DNA from: Firmicutes bacterium UBA6132
Lineage (GTDB): Bacteria > Bacillota_A > Clostridia > Tissierellales > Sedimentibacteraceae
Direction: 5' to 3'
Length of the DNA: 8,086 nt
Assembly: GCA_002435835.1 (NCBI GenBank)
Contig: DIVM01000187.1
Location: forward strand, 1 to 8,086
Below are positions 1-8,086 of the stretch, one piece after another. The notes beneath the pieces were generated by a model, which did no database searches, was not told the origin of the DNA, and saw nothing but the letters and a program-made list of their open reading frames with translations. The position numbers and the translations under genes were made by a program. Within the stretch, counting starts at the first letter, position 1, and every line of letters begins with the position of its first letter.

Positions 1-340
1 ATGCACTAAAATATGCAACAAGTTGAGCTTGTTCCCTATTTTTAATTTTCTTGGAAGTTAAATCCCCAAAAGCCTTAGCAGCTCCTGAAATTTTAACCAT
101 ATACACAAATCCACCACAAGCAACAATCAACATAATTGTACCTGCGTTCCAAGTATTTCCAATCTGAGGAATAAAAAAATCTGATATCATTTTTGGTAGT
201 GCAATTATTGGATTCCAACCATTAATTATTGTTGTACCTATCCACAAACTCACTAATAAAGAAAAAATAGTTTGCTTTGTAATTAGTGCCAACACAATTG
301 CCATTAACGGTGGTACGATAGATAAAAAACCATATTCCAT
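1..340 (-). CDS. NhaC-family Na+/H+ antiporter, N-terminal part (runs off the window)
   Basis: My reading of the minus strand from the ATG at 340-338 stays open for 113 codons to the window edge, so the C-terminal three quarters or so of a normal 450-500-residue antiporter is missing. The start is fixed by AAGGAG about 8 nt upstream. The N-terminus (MEYGFLSIVPPLMAIVLALI) and the next hydrophobic stretches look like membrane helices at about residues 5-21, 24-41 and 64-83. The Ser-Ile-Val-Pro-Pro start, Leu-Ile-Thr-Lys, Asn-Gly-Trp-Asn-Pro and Trp-Asn-Ala-Gly motifs are typical of the NhaC family as I recall it. Known members exchange Na+ for H+, and some are malate/lactate or amino-acid exchangers, so the substrate is open. 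It follows the carbamate kinase gene after 179 nt containing a hairpin, so it may be only partly co-transcribed with the ureide genes. A role in ion or pH balance during ammonia-releasing catabolism is an inference. Confidence 0.82.
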   Translation of the reverse strand, partial: MEYGFLSIVPPLMAIVLALITKQTIFSLLVSLWIGTTIINGWNPIIALPKMISDFFIPQIGNTWNAGTIMLIVACGGFVYMVKISGAAKAFGDLTSKKIKNREQAQLVAYFSA

Positions 341-519: not shown

Positions 520-1464
520 TTATTTCTTAATCACTGTACCACATTTTCCTTCTAAAGCTTCTGTAGCTTTATAAAGTGAAGTAATTATTGCTTTTCTACC
601 TGTTTTTGATTTTGCAAAATTTACTGCTGCCAATATTTTTGGAAGCATACTTCCTGGTGCAAAATGTCCTTCTTCAATATATTGTTCTGCTTTTTCTACT
701 GTTAAATTAGTTAAATCTTCTTGATTTGGTTTCCTATAATTTATAGATACATTTTCTACTTCTGTGAGTATCATGAGAATATCTGCTTCCATATCTTCTG
801 CTAATCTTCCTGCTGCATGATCCTTATCTATAACTGCAGCTATACCTTGTAGGGAACCATCTTCATTTTCAATAACTGGAATTCCTCCGCCACCGCAAGT
901 TACAGAAATAGTTGTGTCCCACAATGTTTTAATTGTATCTATTTCTACTATTCTTTTTGGTATTGGTGAAGGTACTACCCTTCTCCATCCTCTTCCAGCA
1001 TCTTCTTTAACTATATATCCCATTTCTTCTGCTAATTCTTTTGCTTCCTGCTCTGTATAAAATATTCCAATTGGTTTTGAAGGGTTTTGAAAGGATTTAT
1101 CTTCTTTATCTATGATCATTTGCGTAATTATACTTACTACTGGTAATATTCTATTTCTTTTTGCTAAAGCATATTTTAATCCCTGTTGTATATGGTATCC
1201 TATATATCCCTGACTCATTGCTCCACACACATCAAAAGGCATTGATGGCGTTACGTTTGCAGCTGTTTCGGAAGCTAATAATATTCTTCCTACTTGAGGG
1301 CCATTACCATGTACAACTGCTATTTCATATCCTGCACAACTTATATCTGCTATATATTCACATGTTCTTTTTACTACTTCTAATTGGGACTGGGCTGTAG
1401 ATGGAAGATTTTTATCTTCTAAAGCGTTACCACCTAATGCAATTACAACTCTTTTTGGTCTCAT
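520..1464 (-). CDS. arcC: Carbamate kinase (ArcC family)
   Basis: This cytosolic enzyme catalyses the reversible reaction carbamoyl phosphate + ADP = ATP + carbamate; in catabolism it is the ATP-yielding step. The 314-residue length is normal. Family motifs run in order: VIALGGNAL (residues 7-15), VVHGNGPQVG (50-59), SQGYIGY (84-90), SKPIGIFY (129-136, with the conserved substrate-loop lysine), VTCGGGGIPV (188-197), the nucleotide-site segment AVIDKDHAAGRLAE (210-223) and GSMLPKI (271-277). AAGGAGA about 7 nt upstream supports the ATG at 1464. It starts 28 nt after the carbamoyltransferase gene and is almost certainly co-transcribed with it and allE. No arginine deiminase or ornithine carbamoyltransferase genes lie nearby, so the carbamoyl phosphate probably comes from ureide breakdown rather than arginine. 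In allantoin operons this role is played by AllK/YbcF-type carbamate kinases. All key motifs appear intact. Confidence 0.95.
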   Translation of the reverse strand: MRPKRVVIALGGNALEDKNLPSTAQSQLEVVKRTCEYIADISCAGYEIAVVHGNGPQVGRILLASETAANVTPSMPFDVCGAMSQGYIGYHIQQGLKYALAKRNRILPVVSIITQMIIDKEDKSFQNPSKPIGIFYTEQEAKELAEEMGYIVKEDAGRGWRRVVPSPIPKRIVEIDTIKTLWDTTISVTCGGGGIPVIENEDGSLQGIAAVIDKDHAAGRLAEDMEADILMILTEVENVSINYRKPNQEDLTNLTVEKAEQYIEEGHFAPGSMLPKILAAVNFAKSKTGRKAIITSLYKATEALEGKCGTVIKK

Positions 1465-1492
1465 TTTTCATCTCCTTATAAAAATTATAATT

Positions 1493-2506
1493 TTATGATA
1501 AACCAACCATTGAAGCTATTAAAGCCATTCTTATTGGAATACTGAATCCTATTTGCTTAAAATATAATTCATGTTCAGTTTTATCTATTTCAAAATCAAA
1601 CTCACCTTCAAATCTTGGTAAAGAGTGCATTATTCCAATTGTTCTGCCGTATTTTTCTTTTGCTTTTATTAAAGTATCTAATTTTATATAATAATTTTTA
1701 GATTTTTCCATAAATAGCTCTCTTGCATCTTGACCTTTTGGAACACTACATCCAGGTAAATATACTAAGTCACATTCCATCACAAGTTCTTCCTGTTGCT
1801 TTTCACTTAAATCAAAATGTTCAGTATACTTGCAGCCAGTTTCATCAAGTTTTTCACGTATTGCTTCAGATGTACGTAACTCACTTGGTCCTGAATAAAT
1901 TATTTCTGCTCCCATTCTTGCAAGACCCATTGCAAATGATTGTCCACTTCTGGCTCTTGTCAAGTCAGGAGAAGTTACCATTACTTTTATTCCTTCTAAT
2001 GTACCTAATGCTCTATAAGCTGTATACATATCTAAAAGTCCTTGTGTAGGATGTGTTATATTGCCATAACCACAACTTATTACTGGTACTTGTGCAGTTT
2101 TAATATCATCAAAAATTGTAGTATCATTATAGTGTCTTAAAGCTACAATATCAGCATACTCCGAAATAACTCTCATTGTATCTGCTAAAGACTCATCTTT
2201 TGCAGCTGATGAATTGGCACCAGGGTTAGACTCGCTTATTACATCACCACCAAGCCTAAGCATAGCCATTTCAGTTGAAAATCTTGTTCTTGTACTTGGT
2301 TGGAAAAACATAGTACAAAGGGCTTTGCCTTCTAATAGATTAATTTTGCTTTTATGAAAAGGTTCTAGCATTTCAGCTGCTTTAAATAAACTATAAAGTT
2401 GATTTTTGCTTAAATCAGTAAGAAAATTTAAGTTTTTTCCTTTAAGTTCTGTTTTTTCAAGATAATCATTTAATTTTAATGTTTTGAATTCCTTAGTTAT
2501 AGCCAT
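1493..2506 (-). CDS. ATCase-like catabolic carbamoyltransferase, candidate ureidoglycine (allantoate-forming) or oxamate carbamoyltransferase
   Basis: The 337-residue protein has the aspartate/ornithine carbamoyltransferase fold. The carbamoyl-phosphate site is complete: FFQPSTRTR (67-75), a mobile-loop lysine in SSAAKDES (99-106, matching Lys84 of E. coli aspartate transcarbamylase), ALRH (122-125) and THPTQ (151-155). The C-terminus, from MHSLPR (293-298) to YFKQIGFSIPIRMALI (315-330), is aspartate-transcarbamylase-like. The second-substrate site differs: the usual TRVQKER with its aspartate-binding arginine is replaced by LPGCSVPKGQ (250-259), HPLPR is HSLPR, and the SMG and HCLP motifs of ornithine enzymes are absent. 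It is also unlike E. coli YgeW as I recall that sequence. Lying 26 nt after allE and 28 nt before carbamate kinase, it probably works in the phosphorolytic direction. The best candidate reaction is allantoate + phosphate to (S)-ureidoglycine + carbamoyl phosphate; oxalurate to oxamate is second. AGGAGG 8 nt upstream fixes the ATG at 2506. Fold and class are secure; the substrate is inferred. Confidence 0.85.
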   Translation of the reverse strand: MAITKEFKTLKLNDYLEKTELKGKNLNFLTDLSKNQLYSLFKAAEMLEPFHKSKINLLEGKALCTMFFQPSTRTRFSTEMAMLRLGGDVISESNPGANSSAAKDESLADTMRVISEYADIVALRHYNDTTIFDDIKTAQVPVISCGYGNITHPTQGLLDMYTAYRALGTLEGIKVMVTSPDLTRARSGQSFAMGLARMGAEIIYSGPSELRTSEAIREKLDETGCKYTEHFDLSEKQQEELVMECDLVYLPGCSVPKGQDARELFMEKSKNYYIKLDTLIKAKEKYGRTIGIMHSLPRFEGEFDFEIDKTEHELYFKQIGFSIPIRMALIASMVGLS

Positions 2507-2532
2507 TTTTCAATCCTCCTATATTTTAAAAT

Positions 2533-3300
2533 TTATATAATTTCGTCCCTATTGCAATCTTTTGAATAAATATATGTAAATCTTTCTCTACCTGTGGCAT
2601 AACAACCTTGTTGAACAAATGGAGCCATCCAAAGGAAGTCGTCTTTTTTAACTTGAATCCACTCAGCGCCTAATTGATAATAACCTTGACCATTAGTAAT
2701 ATATGCACTGTGTTCTTGAACATGGGTTTCTATAAATGGATGACAACCAGCAGGTTTAAAACTTAATATGTGCATGTTCATATCAAATCCTAAATGTGTA
2801 GGAAGTAAATCTTTAATGAACATATTATCCATTCCATCATATTCTCTTTCTTCAATTTCATTAACATTTCCTACAACAGTATCTGCTTTATGTCCATTAA
2901 GTTCTATATACTTTTGTTTATAAAGAAGTATTCTATAATTACCATCTGATTCATTAAAAAGCTCCATTGTTTTATCAGCTGGTACAAAAGCATATCCCCC
3001 TTGAGATAATTCAAAGTTTTCATTTCCTGCTTTTACTTTGAGTATACCTTCTCCATCCATAAAATACACAAATGTTTCAACTCCGTTACCACCAAAAGGC
3101 AATGTAGTCTTAGCACCTGGACTTACTGTTGATACATAAAAAACACTTTGTGCACCCATTTTAGGTGATGTCAATATAGTTGTTTTAAAACCTTCAAATC
3201 CTGGTATTACATTTATAACTCTACCTTCTGGTGGCAATACTGCATATTCCCCACGTTTAATTATTGCTCTTGATTCTAAAAAATCTTTTGGATATCCCAT
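2533..3300 (-). CDS. allE: (S)-ureidoglycine aminohydrolase (bicupin, AllE/YlbA)
   Basis: AllE releases ammonia from (S)-ureidoglycine to give (S)-ureidoglycolate in allantoin catabolism. At 255 residues it matches E. coli AllE (about 261) from end to end by recall: the MGY start, RAIIKRGEYA (11-20), VIPGFEG (31-37), GVETFVYFMDGEG (73-85), LGFDMNMHILSF (170-181), IETHVQEH (190-197), VQQGCYATGR (229-238) and the tail YIYSKDCNRD (243-252). It has two cupin domains, at about 40-125 and 170-250; the second carries the Mn2+ ligands Glu191, His193, His197 and Gln231. Lys248, in the conserved tail, corresponds to a substrate-site lysine of plant ureidoglycine aminohydrolase. The AGGAGG about 5 nt before the ATG at 3300 is strong. 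It heads the allE-carbamoyltransferase-carbamate kinase unit, and a TATAAT at 3330-3335 suggests its own promoter. All ligands are intact, so activity is expected. Confidence 0.95.
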   Translation of the reverse strand: MGYPKDFLESRAIIKRGEYAVLPPEGRVINVIPGFEGFKTTILTSPKMGAQSVFYVSTVSPGAKTTLPFGGNGVETFVYFMDGEGILKVKAGNENFELSQGGYAFVPADKTMELFNESDGNYRILLYKQKYIELNGHKADTVVGNVNEIEEREYDGMDNMFIKDLLPTHLGFDMNMHILSFKPAGCHPFIETHVQEHSAYITNGQGYYQLGAEWIQVKKDDFLWMAPFVQQGCYATGRERFTYIYSKDCNRDEII

Positions 3301-3440: not shown

Positions 3441-4901
3441 TTATCTTATTTTAAATGAAGGCTTAAAAATTTCATCTTCTGGTAAATGTTTATAATCTCT
3501 TTCCATATAACCATATTTCATTTTGTCATAGTATTTCTGAGCTTTTATTTTCATTTCATCTAAATCTATTCCTTCTATTTTTCTATCCTTCATAACAGTT
3601 TTTCCATTTATTATTGATACTTTAACATCAGTTCCTGATCCACACATAATCATAGTACGTATAGGATCATCAACAGCTCCCATATGAAAAGCATTGAGAT
3701 CAATTACTATAATATCTGCCTTAGCGCCTTTACAAAGCCTTCCTAAATCTTCTCTACCTAACATTTTTGCTCCACCTAAAGTAGCTGCCCTATATATATC
3801 TGCATATCGTGAATCTTCATTATTTCCTTCATACATTTGTGAAAACATACTTGCCACTCTTATATTTTGGAAAAAATCAGGTGGGAAGGTATCAGTTCCT
3901 ATTGCTATATTTATTCCGTTTCTTTTATATTTGGCAAATGACTCCATAAAATGTCCATTTCTTCCTAATATAACTGGACAATGTATAACAGTTGTACCTG
4001 TTTCTTTTAAAAGTTCAAGGTCATCACCATAACCTTTATTTACTCTGCTGCTTCCTGTAACTATATAACAATGTGGAATTCCTACTTTTTCATCTAAAAA
4101 TCCTATATCATATAAAAATCTTATTGATGACTTTCCATACTTACTGTAAATAATATCATATTCACTTTCACCTTGAGCAGCGTGTAATTTAATTGGACAA
4201 TTCAACATATCTGCATATTTTTTTGTATTAATTAAATTAGCTTCTGTCTGTGTTTCTATTCTCTCAGGTTCTAAAGCACCCCTTATAAGACCGTTATATG
4301 CTCCATCATATTTTTTAACAAATTCAACAGCTCTTGCTAGACCTTTTTCGCCTTCTTCTTCATCAAATTTTACAGTCATAGTTCCATCTGATTGCATAAC
4401 TTTAAAACCTGACTGATAACTTGGTCCTAAATACATTCTTATACCTAATTTTCCTGCATGATGAACTGCAGCTTCAAGTTCTTCATATGTTTCAGCCCAT
4501 CTTTTATAATATACAGAAGTAATAGGCATTGCAGTTGTAATACCATTTAGAATTAGTTGTGTATAAGCAAATAAAGATTTAAAATCTTCTTCCTCAGGTG
4601 TCATAAGTTCATGAGTTCCTTTATTAAAATATTCTTCAGAAGGACTTAAACTTTTACTTACTTCCTTACTTGCTTCAAAATGTAGTATATCATGATCTAT
4701 ATCTCCAAGTGCATTTAAATCTATAAATCCAGGACTAATTACTGCATTGCCATAATCAGCTTCCTCATCAACCATTCCATAATAATTCTTTCCAACATAT
4801 ATTATTTCTTCATCCTTATATACAACTTCGCCATTTAAAATTATTTCATGGTCATTTCCATCATAACCTATTACATATTTACTTTTAATTTTTTTAATCA
4901 T
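3441..4901 (-). CDS. SsnA/chlorohydrolase-like amidohydrolase with atypical metal-site residues
   Basis: This 486-residue protein has the composite amidohydrolase layout: a small beta domain at about 1-55, a TIM-barrel core at about 56-390, and the returning beta domain with the typical GAKADIIVIDLN (392-403). Family landmarks are SPGFIDL (56-62), LHAAQGE (239-245), GIPHCY (274-279), IHCP (306-309) and the strand-8 IGTDTF (334-339). Relatives are metal-dependent deaminases or dechlorinases of purines, pterins and triazines (guanine deaminase, SsnA, TrzN, AtzA). Two positions are unusual: the strand-1 His-x-His after Pro-Gly-Phe is missing (the segment reads DLNALGDIDH), and the usual His-x-x-Glu is HAAQ (240-243). 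His240, His277, His307 and Asp337 remain; Asp67, Asp69, His70 or Glu245 might substitute. It lies between the transporter and allE genes with 140-nt gaps on both sides. A ureide or purine substrate is suggested by context only. Confidence 0.8.
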   Translation of the reverse strand: MIKKIKSKYVIGYDGNDHEIILNGEVVYKDEEIIYVGKNYYGMVDEEADYGNAVISPGFIDLNALGDIDHDILHFEASKEVSKSLSPSEEYFNKGTHELMTPEEEDFKSLFAYTQLILNGITTAMPITSVYYKRWAETYEELEAAVHHAGKLGIRMYLGPSYQSGFKVMQSDGTMTVKFDEEEGEKGLARAVEFVKKYDGAYNGLIRGALEPERIETQTEANLINTKKYADMLNCPIKLHAAQGESEYDIIYSKYGKSSIRFLYDIGFLDEKVGIPHCYIVTGSSRVNKGYGDDLELLKETGTTVIHCPVILGRNGHFMESFAKYKRNGINIAIGTDTFPPDFFQNIRVASMFSQMYEGNNEDSRYADIYRAATLGGAKMLGREDLGRLCKGAKADIIVIDLNAFHMGAVDDPIRTMIMCGSGTDVKVSIINGKTVMKDRKIEGIDLDEMKIKAQKYYDKMKYGYMERDYKHLPEDEIFKPSFKIR

Positions 4902-5041: not shown

Positions 5042-6607
5042 TTACTCGAAATATACTTTATGCACAAAGTGACTTGCTGCTGGTGTTGGTTTAAATCCCA
5101 TAACATTACTTCTCATACCTGCTATTTGTTGAGGATTTGCATATGTGATATATGGTACTTCTGATCTTATTAATTTTTGAACATCTTTTACAATCTTTTC
5201 TCTTTCAGGGCTATCAGGAGTTGTTCTACTTGCATTTAGCAATGCGTCCATCTCAGGATTGCTGTAAAAGCAATAGTTATTTGCTGGAATCTGTAAAGAA
5301 TGTAATGGCCCAAAAATATTATTGTCAGGTTCAGGGAATCCAACTGCTCCCCAACCACTTATGAAAAATTGAGAATCTCCCTGTTCAAGAGCATCCCAGA
5401 ATGTTCCTGCCTCTAAAATTTTTATTTCCAAGTTTATTCCTACTTCTTTAAGCATACTTTGTATAATAGTTGCTGAATCTATTCTCATTTTATTTTCACT
5501 TAATTTAACTTCATATGTTGTTCCTTCTGCTATACCAAGCTCTCTCAAAATTTTCTTTGACTCTTCAGGATTATATCTCATTTTTGTATCGCTATCATCA
5601 AAATATTTCATATTTGGAGTTACTGGTCCTGGAGTATACGTTGCATTTCCTCTGTACACTGATGCAACAATACTTTCTTCATCTATTGCAAGGTCTATAG
5701 CTCTTCTGAATTCAACATTATTAAATGGTTCCTTTGATGTATTCATTCCAAGGAATTCAAAAATAGTTGAATTCTTTTTTTCTATTTTTGTATCTGGATT
5801 ATCTTCAATTCTCTGAACATCATTTGCAGGTATATCGTATATTATGTCAACTCCACCTGCTTCAAGTTCAATAACTCTACTGTTAGCTTCTACAATAGTT
5901 CTTATTACAAGATTTGTATATGCTGCTTTTTCTCCCCAATATTCATCATTTCTGACATATATTACTCTATCACTCTTTTTCCATTCAACAAATTTGAAAG
6001 GTCCCGTTCCAACTGGATTTAAAGCAGCTTTTGCAGCATCAGCAGTAAATTCTTTTTCACTAACAATAACTGCTCCAACGTATGGAAGATAGCCAAGTAA
6101 CGGAGCAAATGGTTCATGCGTTCTAATTATAACTGTATAATCATCTACAATTTCACATTTTTCGGAATCTATAGCCTTCATAATGTATGATACTTTAGCC
6201 CCTTCAGGTCCTGTAGCTCTCTTCATGCTATAAATAACATCACTAGCTTTCATTTCTTCTCCGTTGTGAAATTTAACACCTTTTCTCAAATTGAATTTCA
6301 TACTCAGCTCATCAATTTGTTCCCAACTTTCAGCTAGAAGAGGGCTAATTTCGCCATTCTCGTCGTATCTTACAAGTGTTTCATAAATTGGATTTAGTGC
6401 ATTAACACTTGGAGATGAAGATGAAGAATGAGGATCCAATGTTGGTGGATCTGAACCAAATGCAACCGTTAATGTATCTTGTTTTGTTGCTGCTGGATCT
6501 GATGCTTCAGGAACATCAGTTTTTTGAGTGCAACCTGTCAATACTGAAGATAAAGCAAGCATTCCGATAACTGTAAAACTAATTAACCTACTAAATTTAC
6601 TTTTCAT
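5042..6607 (-). CDS. Extracellular solute-binding lipoprotein, family 5 (DppA/OppA-like)
   Basis: This 521-residue protein is the substrate receptor of a peptide/nickel-type ABC importer, anchored to the outside of the membrane. Residues 1-25 form a lipoprotein signal peptide (basic MKSKFSR, hydrophobic core, lipobox LTGC with Cys26 as the lipidation site). The mature part starts DTLTVAFGSDPPTLDPH (45-61), then NPIYETLVRYDENGEISP (72-89), and carries the family-5 signature region around AESWE and LRKGVKFHNGEEM (92-119). Near the end are FISGWGAVGFPEPDN and a C-terminal VHKVYFE. GGAGG 5 nt before the ATG at 6607 fixes the start. It follows the two ATPase genes after 89 nt, whereas the permease genes must lie upstream, outside the window. 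Family members bind oligopeptides, dipeptides, nickel, haem or sugars; sequence alone does not tell which. Proximity to ureide genes allows a nitrogenous catabolite as ligand, but a peptide is equally possible. Confidence 0.92.
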   Translation of the reverse strand: MKSKFSRLISFTVIGMLALSSVLTGCTQKTDVPEASDPAATKQDTLTVAFGSDPPTLDPHSSSSSPSVNALNPIYETLVRYDENGEISPLLAESWEQIDELSMKFNLRKGVKFHNGEEMKASDVIYSMKRATGPEGAKVSYIMKAIDSEKCEIVDDYTVIIRTHEPFAPLLGYLPYVGAVIVSEKEFTADAAKAALNPVGTGPFKFVEWKKSDRVIYVRNDEYWGEKAAYTNLVIRTIVEANSRVIELEAGGVDIIYDIPANDVQRIEDNPDTKIEKKNSTIFEFLGMNTSKEPFNNVEFRRAIDLAIDEESIVASVYRGNATYTPGPVTPNMKYFDDSDTKMRYNPEESKKILRELGIAEGTTYEVKLSENKMRIDSATIIQSMLKEVGINLEIKILEAGTFWDALEQGDSQFFISGWGAVGFPEPDNNIFGPLHSLQIPANNYCFYSNPEMDALLNASRTTPDSPEREKIVKDVQKLIRSEVPYITYANPQQIAGMRSNVMGFKPTPAASHFVHKVYFE

Positions 6608-6630
6608 ATATCCTCCATTGTTTTTTTATT

Positions 6631-6654
6631 TTAAATATTATTTAAAATATTTAA
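6631..6654. repeat. AT-only inverted repeat in the leader of the solute-binding protein gene
   Basis: TTAAATATT (6631-6639) and AATATTTAA (6646-6654) are perfect 9-bp arms around a 6-nt loop in the 89-nt gap after the second ATPase gene. On the minus strand it is followed by an A-rich run, so it is not a terminator for these genes. It may be a weak mRNA structure or an operator, or chance in very AT-rich DNA. Confidence 0.25.
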
Positions 6655-6669
6655 TTTAATTTTAATTAC

Positions 6670-6675
6670 ATTATA
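6670..6675 (-). promoter_or_regulatory. Possible -10 element for separate transcription of the binding protein gene
   Basis: A TATAAT lies about 63 nt before the ATG of the solute-binding protein gene, but no convincing -35 hexamer is seen 16-18 nt upstream (AAAATT). Binding-protein genes are often expressed more than their ATPases, which would suit an extra promoter, but the evidence is thin. Confidence 0.2.
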
Positions 6676-6696
6676 TATAGAATATAATTTTTAATT

Positions 6697-7656
6697 TTAT
6701 CTATTAACCAAATGACAAGCAACATATCTTTTATTATCAACTTCTCTTAGTTCAGGAGTTTCTTTTAAACATATATCCTTAACATACATACATCTTCCAG
6801 CAAATCTGCAACCTTCAGGTGGATTAACAGGGCTTGGCACATCTCCCTTTAAAATTATTCTCTTGCGTTCTACATTTGCCTTTGGAATTGGTATAGCTGA
6901 TAACAAAGCTTGTGTGTATGGGTGAAGGGGATCTTTAAATATTGCATTATGATCACTTAATTCAACCATTTTACCAAGATACATTACAGCAATTCTATTG
7001 CTAATATGTTTTACTACACTTAAATCATGTGATATAAACAAAAATGTTAAACCAAATTCCTTTTGTAAATTTTTTAAAAGATTAATTACCTGAGCTTGTA
7101 TGCAAACATCAAGTGATGAAACTGGTTCATCCAACACCATAAACTCTGGCTTAACTGACAATGCTCTTGCAACTCCAACTCTTTGACGCCTTCCTCCATC
7201 TAATTCATGTGGATATGAGTTTGTTAGTCTTTCAGATATACCAACTATATCCATCAGTTCTTTTACCCTTTTAGTAACTTTATTCTTATCTTGTTTAAAC
7301 TCATCAATATTCATCAACGGTTCAGATATCAAATCAAATATTGATAGTCTCGGGTTTAATGATGAATATGGATCTTGAAAAACCATTTGTACATTTTGCC
7401 TAAAATTTTTCATTTCTTTTTTGTCAAAGGATAGTACATTTTTATTATGGAATAATACTTCTCCTCCATCTGCTTCTATTAATCTAATAATTGTCCTACC
7501 TGTTGTAGATTTACCACATCCAGATTCTCCAACAAGTCCAAGAGTTTCACCTTTATTAATATAGAAACTTAAATCATCAACAGCATGTAATAAACCCTTC
7601 TTAACATTGAAATACTTTTTTAAGTTTTTTATTTCTATTAATTTCTCATTACTCAT
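6697..7656 (-). CDS. oppF: Peptide-type ABC transporter ATPase, OppF/DppF family
   Basis: This 319-residue cytoplasmic ATPase pairs with the OppD-type subunit to power import of the solute caught by the binding protein. It contains Walker A GESGCGKST (43-51), a Q-loop at VFQDPYSSLNP (92-102), the signature region YPHELDGGRRQR (148-159), Walker B FMVLDEP (172-178), D-loop SLD (181-183) and the H-loop histidine at 210. The family's C-terminal extension follows, with HPYTQALLSAIP (245-256) and four cysteines (283, 289, 296, 314) as in Opp/Dpp ATPases. The signature is odd: LDGGR replaces LSGGQ. The start at 7656 is supported by GGAGG about 8 nt upstream, inside the oppD gene, and overlaps that gene's stop as ATGA, so the two subunits are translationally coupled. 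The transported substrate cannot be told from the ATPase. Confidence 0.93.
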   Translation of the reverse strand: MSNEKLIEIKNLKKYFNVKKGLLHAVDDLSFYINKGETLGLVGESGCGKSTTGRTIIRLIEADGGEVLFHNKNVLSFDKKEMKNFRQNVQMVFQDPYSSLNPRLSIFDLISEPLMNIDEFKQDKNKVTKRVKELMDIVGISERLTNSYPHELDGGRRQRVGVARALSVKPEFMVLDEPVSSLDVCIQAQVINLLKNLQKEFGLTFLFISHDLSVVKHISNRIAVMYLGKMVELSDHNAIFKDPLHPYTQALLSAIPIPKANVERKRIILKGDVPSPVNPPEGCRFAGRCMYVKDICLKETPELREVDNKRYVACHLVNR

Positions 7657-8086
7657 TTTTGCACCTCCATTCTGTCATCATCAAATAAAAAGCATCTTAC
7701 ATAATGTTGGTCATCAATATATTTTACAGCTGGTTTGCTTTTTTTACATTTTTCCATACAACTTGAACATCTTGGATTAAAACAACAACCTTCTATTACC
7801 TCAGTAGGATCAGGAGGCAATCCGCCTATTTCCTCTAAAAATTCTTCTTCCGCATCGAGCTTTGGTATTGAATTAAATAATCCTATTGTATATGGGTGAC
7901 ATGGATTATTATAAAGCTTTTCTTTTGTTGCATATTCTACAACATTACCAGCATACATTATAGCTACTTTATCACAAATTTCAGCAACTATTCCTAAATC
8001 ATGTGTTATTAATATCATAGAAGTTCCAAACTTATCCTTTAATTCTTTCATTAAATCCATAACTTGTGCCTGAATAGTAACATCAA
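7653..8086 (-). CDS. oppD: Peptide-type ABC transporter ATPase, OppD/DppD family, C-terminal part
   Basis: The open frame continues to the window edge, so this is the last 143 residues of a protein usually 320-350 long. The ATG at 8060 is internal: the frame upstream reads DVTIQAQV, the conserved segment just after Walker B and the D-loop in OppD/DppD. Visible are LITHDLGIVAEICD with the H-loop histidine, a VAIMYAGNVVE strand, the family extension NPCHPYTIGLFNSIP and a cysteine-rich tail GCCFNPRCSSCMEKC followed by VRC. Such cysteines bind an iron-sulfur cluster in some DppD proteins. Walker A, Q-loop and signature lie outside the window. It ends with TGA overlapping the oppF start by 4 nt. 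Permease genes are presumably further upstream. Confidence 0.92.
   Translation of the reverse strand, partial: DVTIQAQVMDLMKELKDKFGTSMILITHDLGIVAEICDKVAIMYAGNVVEYATKEKLYNNPCHPYTIGLFNSIPKLDAEEEFLEEIGGLPPDPTEVIEGCCFNPRCSSCMEKCKKSKPAVKYIDDQHYVRCFLFDDDRMEVQK

Follow-up and report, generated by a model that had tools for sequence, protein, structure and literature searches.

An allE, transcarbamylase and carbamate kinase gene trio as a probable energy-saving module for allantoate

Here we analysed a stretch of 8,086 bases from Firmicutes bacterium UBA6132 (contig DIVM01000187.1; hereafter the window), in which three adjacent genes encode AllE, a homolog of aspartate transcarbamylase (ATCase) and a carbamate kinase. 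Taken together, our results make it very probable that this trio constitutes an energy-saving module for allantoate, with the transferase at its centre being a ureidoglycine transcarbamylase (UGTCase). In such a pathway, the transferase would convert allantoate and phosphate to ureidoglycine and carbamoyl phosphate, AllE would process ureidoglycine to ureidoglycolate and ammonia, and the carbamate kinase would use carbamoyl phosphate and ADP to form ATP, carbon dioxide and ammonia, for a predicted yield of one ATP per allantoate. Energetically, the scheme follows the same principle as the arginine deiminase route. The YgeW system works on this principle as well (PMC12507026). Cleavage of allantoate has been demonstrated with purified Rxyl_2847 of Rubrobacter xylanophilus, either with arsenate, where ureidoglycine was measured, or with phosphate, where carbamoyl phosphate was trapped as citrulline (PMC4016543). 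Because the equilibrium of the UGTCase reaction favours carbamoylation (PMC4016543), the kinase and AllE would pull it towards cleavage. We infer all three steps, as well as the co-transcription of the genes, for the window organism. A reading made from the sequence alone had proposed this phosphorolysis and named a proposed ureidoglycine carbamoyltransferase as precedent; the precedent exists (PMC4016543), and the proposal itself gains support from the Rubrobacter assay and from the published signature that the window protein bears.

The same reading had placed the trio at 520-3300, and both the open reading frame (ORF) calls and the family models find the three genes exactly there, all on the minus strand, arranged as follows from first to last in the direction of transcription:

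2533..3300, minus strand: allE, (S)-ureidoglycine aminohydrolase, a two-cupin protein of 255 amino acids (TIGR03214)
2507..2532, minus strand: 26 bases separating allE from the transferase gene, containing the ribosome-binding site AGGAGG
1493..2506, minus strand: carbamoyltransferase with the UGTCase signature, 337 amino acids (PF02729 and PF00185)
1465..1492, minus strand: 28 bases separating the transferase gene from that of carbamate kinase, containing the ribosome-binding site AAGGAG
520..1464, minus strand: carbamate kinase of the arcC type, 314 amino acids (TIGR00746)

All three ORFs have a ribosome-binding site within the 22 bases upstream, that of allE also being AGGAGG. Since scans for promoters (43 sites versus 44.5 in shuffled sequences) and terminators (2 versus 2.8) gave no excess over shuffles, it is the gene spacing and the shared strand that suggest an operon. 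The two outer genes were readily assigned. On TIGR03214 (cut-off 200), AllE reaches 321.5 bits; it is 48% identical to E. coli AllE and has E. coli YlbA (1rc6, 257 bits) as its closest solved relative, while the carbamate kinase scores 394.5 bits on TIGR00746 (cut-off 358.25) and is 37% identical to E. coli YbcF/AllK.

The transferase matched the OTCace_N (PF02729) and OTCace (PF00185) domains in Pfam, and its closest solved relatives by sequence are ATCases. In agreement with this, its predicted structure (pLDDT 89.8) has ATCases as all of its best 50 fold matches, with 1ml4 at the top (TM score 0.81). It nevertheless stays below the cut-off of every transcarbamylase model scored, with 204 bits for ATCase (TIGR00670, cut-off 236.95), 116.8 for the ornithine enzyme (TIGR00658, 280.85), 97 for the putrescine enzyme (TIGR04384, 500) and 35.7 for YgeW (TIGR03316, 500). 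Together with the score on TIGR00670, the replacement of RxQ by GCS and of HPLP by HSLP sets it apart from PyrB.

To describe the active site, we mapped residues against E. coli PyrB in 40 rows of the transferase family and 64 rows of PyrB. The window protein carries STRT at 71-74, S99, K103, R124, HPTQ at 152-155, R186, G252-C253-S254, K257 and HSLP at 294-297. Its carbamoyl-phosphate site is thus intact (S71-T74, K103, R124, H152-Q155, and S99 as placed by its spacing to K103), and HSLP and G252-C253-S254, in place of HPLP and RxQ, fit the motifs H(T/S)LP and GX[SC] given for UGTCase (PMC4016543, Table 1, row 2; PMC4581275). The arginine that helps to bind the alpha-carboxylate in ATCase is kept (R167 in E. 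coli, R186 in the window), R229 and Q231, which bind the beta-carboxylate, are replaced by G252 and S254, and the HPLP proline P266 is replaced by S295 (residue roles after PMC4581275). R186, G252 and S295 are invariant in all 40 family rows, none of which has the RxQ arginine or the HPLP proline; conversely, the RxQ arginine, the RxQ glutamine and the HPLP proline are invariant in 64/64 PyrB rows. Ureidoglycine is similar to aspartate, except that an uncharged ureido group takes the position of the beta-carboxylate; a UGTCase should therefore retain R186 and dispense with the R229/Q231 pair; this pattern of keeping the alpha-carboxylate arginine and losing the beta-carboxylate pair is what the family sequences show.

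The active site proposed for the R. xylanophilus UGTCase comprises S74, T75, R76, T77, R126, H155, Q158, L299, S102, K106, R189, S258 and K261 (PMC4581275). Matched through motif, spacing and the alignment to E. coli PyrB, rather than through the Rubrobacter sequence itself, these correspond, in the same order, to S71, T72, R73, T74, R124, H152, Q155, L296, S99, K103, R186, S254 and K257 of the window protein. The proposed substrate residues R189, S258, K261, T298 and L299 thereby find counterparts in R186, S254, K257, S295 and L296, with Ser for Thr at T298 of H(T/S)LP.

Relatives of the transferase were collected from a genome scan, in which 18 of the 80 loci listed belong to the family, a sample rather than a census. 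A 19th locus (L104) was added after searching a single bacterial family, in which one genome out of 206 had the gene at E<=1e-75. The remaining 62 loci of the scan (L019-L080) are PyrB-like by motif and L081-L087 repeat counted loci or L104; neither set enters the context counts below. Where sources name the relatives, they are mostly called "aspartate carbamoyltransferase". The family occurs in Bacillota, Pseudomonadota, Planctomycetota, Thermodesulfobacteriota and Synergistota, the last with only transferase and kinase seen. In a tree with 24 PyrB rows (chosen from 64) and 10 rows of the ornithine transcarbamylase (OTC) type, the 40 family rows, some of which are near-copies, make up a single clade with 100/100 support and a long stem; a long-branch warning concerned the grouping of L098 with the rest and that of three PyrB rows with the OTC rows, the family branch not being named alone. 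The L104 transferase is 99% identical to Clostridium autoethanogenum P0030, and C. ljungdahlii, which the legend of Figure 5 in PMC4016543 groups with Rxyl_2847, would fall in the window's clade if the C. ljungdahlii-like genome (G148) is that species.

At first, the motif looked like a mismatch, since Table 1 of PMC4016543 gives HPLA for 'pseudo-ATCase 1', the group to which the text of that paper assigns R. xylanophilus and C. ljungdahlii. This reading was set aside: among six matches in the C. ljungdahlii-like genome, a single one is a paralogue of this type, with GCS and HSLP, and the Rubrobacter enzyme has H(T/S)LP with T298 (PMC4581275). Probably, the numbering of the table rows differs from that of the figure groups, with the motif of table row 2 fitting figure group 1.

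The gene neighbourhoods of the 19 loci point to ureidoglycine metabolism. AllE is present in 14 of them, as the next identified gene in 13, with an M20 amidase intervening in L104; the pairing extends over four phyla (Bacillota, Pseudomonadota, Planctomycetota and Thermodesulfobacteriota). Three loci without a visible AllE (L001, L005, L008) instead have a predicted ureidoglycine-glyoxylate aminotransferase. The L008 protein matches the solved enzyme of this name (3nnk) with 516 bits, the other two were matched to that of L008 only, and the L001 contig begins 0.7 kb before the gene. In L011 (a contig of 3.2 kb) and L015, neither AllE nor aminotransferase was seen. As the unrelated AllE and aminotransferase share ureidoglycine as substrate, ureidoglycine is the likely product of the transferase. 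A carbamate kinase is found in 17/19 loci, allantoinase in 9/19 and AllA in 3/19; the window has no allantoinase, and its carbamate kinase adjoins the transferase. These searches used phmmer on stop-to-stop frames, since longest-ORF calling was unreliable in loci of high G+C content: 5 of the 10 longest-ORF proteins of one neighbour set matched no family at E<=1e-15, and the ORF at L018:11039-12121 is a wrong frame of AllD.

In six loci (L001, L003, L005, L006, L008, L016), the transferase has an asparaginase-like neighbour, an asparaginase II-like gene between UGTCase and carbamate kinase (e.g. L001:1753-2769), and three of the six also have AllE. In R. xylanophilus, such a protein has been proposed for the AllE step (PMC4016543); replacement of AllE therefore does not account for every case. 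The carbamate kinase gene beside UGTCase is split over two frames in L011:2061-3012 and L017:11171-12111, by sequencing error or decay, and L017 has a second carbamate kinase copy beside a YgeY-type hydrolase. The C. ljungdahlii-like L104 has the order AllE, M20 amidase, transferase, carbamate kinase, IlvC-like protein, allantoin-type permease and two allantoinases. Its ketol-acid reductoisomerase (IlvC) paralogue (L104:13573-14568) is 78% identical to that of L014 (L014:8913-9905), both clusters also having the M20 amidase; the paralogue perhaps serves in glyoxylate reduction or ureidoglycolate oxidation.

To gauge the association with AllE, we surveyed an even draw of genomes from the classes of G148 and of G010, a Sutterellaceae genome, at E<=1e-40 and counting both centres. 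AllE was found in 8/391 and 11/369 genomes, respectively; given this rarity, its presence in 14/19 family loci is not a matter of chance. None of the 7 other AllE genes of G148's class has a UGTCase in the stretches fetched around it, and none was seen near the 10 others of G010's class, where the L136 and L140 contigs end just after AllE. The ten AllE proteins of the latter class are distant from the window AllE (96 to 117 bits). Of the 7 loci in G148's class, 5 have an M20 amidase, two of these being AllC by NF006768 (605.8 and 581.5 bits, cut-off 532). This fits AllC and UGTCase being alternatives in Clostridia, although L104, L014, L004 and L007 carry both an M20 gene and UGTCase.

The sequence-only reading had further suggested asking whether genomes with the trio lack allC while having allB. 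Whole-genome counts cover 17 genomes (that of L011 excluded), or 18 with G148; many, G017 included, are metagenome assemblies, which makes absences soft. The answer is mixed. None of the 17 genomes has an AllC above the cut-off of 597.75 (top score 291 bits), a strict threshold that the clear AllC proteins of L126 (581 bits) and L127 (546 bits) also miss, though these still score well above the family genomes; weaker M20 relatives occur in 15/17, the other two having none. Allantoinase was above its cut-off in 8/17 genomes. The M20 amidases of L104 and L014 group together in a separate clade (98/96) that excludes E. coli AllC, L126 and L127. Against ureidoglycolate hydrolase 4pxe they reach 236.5 and 230.3 bits, more than the 202.4 and 200.6 bits against AllC 1z2l, with N-carbamoyl-L-amino acid hydrolase 3n5f as the best match (255 and 279 bits), as it also is for L129 and L130. 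For M20 proteins without a UGTCase nearby, the respective scores for AllC and ureidoglycolate hydrolase are 453.9 and 205.5 (L126), 227.9 and 174.6 (L129), and 213.8 and 187.6 (L130). The L007 protein, with which that of L004 pairs in the M20 tree, is close to neither (154.6 for AllC, 145.8 for ureidoglycolate hydrolase, 369.4 for an uncharacterised amidase). Judged by these scores, two of the four M20 proteins near a transferase, those of L104 and L014, are possible ureidoglycolate hydrolases, and AllC activity is possible as well.

Several observations weigh against a role of the trio in allantoate phosphorolysis. We know of no assay for any member of the window's clade. The position of S254 is variable in the family (Ser in 34, Cys in 2 and Arg in 4 of 40 rows), as is that of K257 (Lys in 37/40); the E. 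coli row is off by one residue at S99; and the correspondence to the Rubrobacter enzyme is an indirect one. The 8,086 bases of the window contain neither an allantoinase nor a known allantoin transporter, no carbamate kinase lies near the transferase in L004 and L007, and in L004, L007, L014 and L104 the M20 amidase could do the allantoate step. Finally, AllE alone does not call for the transferase, which is found at 0/17 of the non-centre AllE loci.

It seemed conceivable that the transferase acts in catabolism on another ureido acid, for example 2,3-diureidopropionate, as YgeW does, or carbamoyl-aspartate, and accompanies AllE through their shared part in purine breakdown. YgeW carries out a step of this kind during the reductive breakdown of uric acid, its cluster including the carbamate kinase YqeA (PMC12507026), L017 has the YgeY-type hydrolase and second carbamate kinase by its trio, and L015 has transferase and kinase without AllE. 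However, the window protein falls far short of the YgeW cut-off, carbamoyl-aspartate would need the beta-carboxylate site that the family has lost, and in most loci the identified neighbours are allantoin genes, although genes of uric acid reduction besides YgeY were not searched for. We therefore regard this alternative as unlikely.

Less likely still, and with very little chance of being correct, is that the transferase is an oxamate transcarbamylase, in which case an AllC-type enzyme would yield ureidoglycine, AllE ureidoglycolate and a dehydrogenase oxalurate, which would then be split to oxamate and carbamoyl phosphate. In E. coli, AllE and the carbamate kinase AllK indeed lie beside the oxamate transcarbamylase genes (L143; PMC11326118), M20 amidases in 4/19 clusters could provide the first step, and AllD relatives at E<=1e-20 in 13/17 genomes (G017 counted), or the IlvC-like protein of L104 and L014, the dehydrogenase. 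The idea would also explain why AllG was found in 7/18 family genomes and not in the other 11. Yet the E. coli oxamate transcarbamylase is AllFGH, whose fold is unrelated to that of the transferase (PMC11326118); none of the 8 window proteins scanned matched PF06545 (AllG) at E<=0.001, and the transferase has the fold of ATCase and ornithine transcarbamylase. L008 and L018 have AllF and AllG in the transferase's own cluster (AllH not being found there), and AllD exceeds its cut-off in a single genome of 17, the planctomycete G017, which itself has AllG. In one cluster, G017 combines UGTCase, AllE, AllD, AllF, AllG, two allantoinases and carbamate kinase, and a search of its genome at E<=1e-3 found no relative of AllC. 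Should AllF and AllG act on oxalurate, this transferase would be the one enzyme left for allantoate in G017, a gene set that argues against an oxamate transcarbamylase role.

A situation in which the gene is a genome's only pyrB, named by the sequence-only reading as evidence against itself, is approached in 6/18 genomes without another PyrB above the cut-off (G002, G003, G005, G010, G014, G015). Three of these are metagenome assemblies (G003, G005, G015), G003 having a PyrB-like piece cut off at a contig edge. In the other three, which are Sutterellaceae (L002, L010, L015), the dimer-type pyrC was found in 0/3, compared with 4/4 comparison genomes, and pyrE is present; these organisms are likely unable to make pyrimidines from scratch, and since dimer-type pyrC is missing as well, the transferase is unlikely to be their pyrimidine enzyme. 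A diverged ATCase for pyrimidine synthesis is thus most improbable: despite the ATCases among its closest folds and sequences and the names given to its relatives, the RxQ arginine and HPLP proline are lost across the family, 12/18 genomes have a separate PyrB above the cut-off, and none of 30 neighbour proteins scanned (7 without a match) has a pyrimidine gene as its best match.

With allantoate phosphorolysis as the preferred reading, the combination of UGTCase, carbamate kinase, AllF and AllG in single clusters (L018:3484-14795, L008:10001-17342) deserves attention; L001 has in addition a cut-off AllG. Here, carbamoyl phosphate could be gained from each of the two ureido groups of allantoate and used by one carbamate kinase. 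At E<=1e-10, neither L018 nor L008 yielded AllH, the third component of the E. coli oxamate transcarbamylase, so that an oxamate transcarbamylase step in the G017 and L008 clusters is likely, not certain. We tentatively propose, as an idea that we hold to be nearly as plausible as its negation, a widespread modular pathway of phosphorolytic allantoate breakdown across five phyla, in which either AllE or the aminotransferase pulls UGTCase and whose fullest form, stacked with AllF and AllG, would yield two ATP per allantoate.

The remainder of the window (31% G+C) contains the following features, of which the transport genes at 5042-8084 are possibly a candidate uptake system for the trio's substrate:

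3441-4901, minus strand: amidohydrolase upstream of allE (NF004801, 657 bits, cut-off 416)
5042-6607, minus strand: family-5 substrate-binding protein upstream of allE
within 5042-8084, minus strand: two oligopeptide-type ATP-binding cassette (ABC) ATPases by family models, one truncated by the window edge
2-340, minus strand: first part of a gene, truncated by the window edge, whose product is hydrophobic, membrane-like and without a family match

The closest solved relative of the amidohydrolase is 8-oxoguanine deaminase (80.5 bits), and no relative of it was found at E<=1e-12 among the 19 related clusters. Rfam gave no family matches in the window, and in a tblastn search against plasmids every match remained below 60% identity (top 36%).

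The demonstration of UGTCase activity and the proposal that it is coupled to carbamate kinase date from 2013, and reviews of 2015 and 2018 took both up. The present results extend a single-enzyme report from a thermophile to a pathway that can be tested and in which the preceding and following steps have named genes. Allantoate phosphorolysis as an activity is already known, and the window trio adds another member. New, to judge by the literature searched, in which we found no report (weak evidence by itself), are the pairing with AllE in four phyla, the aminotransferase alternative and the clusters of UGTCase with AllF and AllG. If the family members are UGTCases, few residues tell an energy route from purine waste apart from pyrimidine synthesis, and gas-fermenting clostridia and Sutterellaceae would be predicted to gain ATP besides nitrogen from allantoin.

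Among known systems, the closest is Rxyl_2847 of R. xylanophilus, which shares with the window protein the ATCase branch, the kept STRT and HPTQ, H(T/S)LP and GX[SC] (PMC4016543, PMC4581275). It also adjoins a carbamate kinase and has an asparaginase-like gene nearby, as in the six loci described here, but in the window AllE is the next gene, whereas none is named among Rxyl_2840-2850 (PMC4016543). The E. coli pathway of AllB, AllC, AllE, AllD, AllFGH and AllK likewise uses AllE and a catabolic carbamate kinase (PMC11326118; L143); there, however, AllC hydrolyses allantoate and carbamoyl phosphate arises only later, from oxalurate, via the unrelated AllFGH. In the YgeW-YqeA system, a transcarbamylase likewise converts a ureido acid derived from purines to carbamoyl phosphate, and the cluster includes a carbamate kinase (PMC12507026), but YgeW belongs to the knotted transcarbamylase family, from which the score of the window protein sets it far apart. 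PyrB, finally, has the same fold and carbamoyl-phosphate site, and differs in the aspartate-binding residues R229 and Q231 and in P266, all of which are replaced in the window protein.

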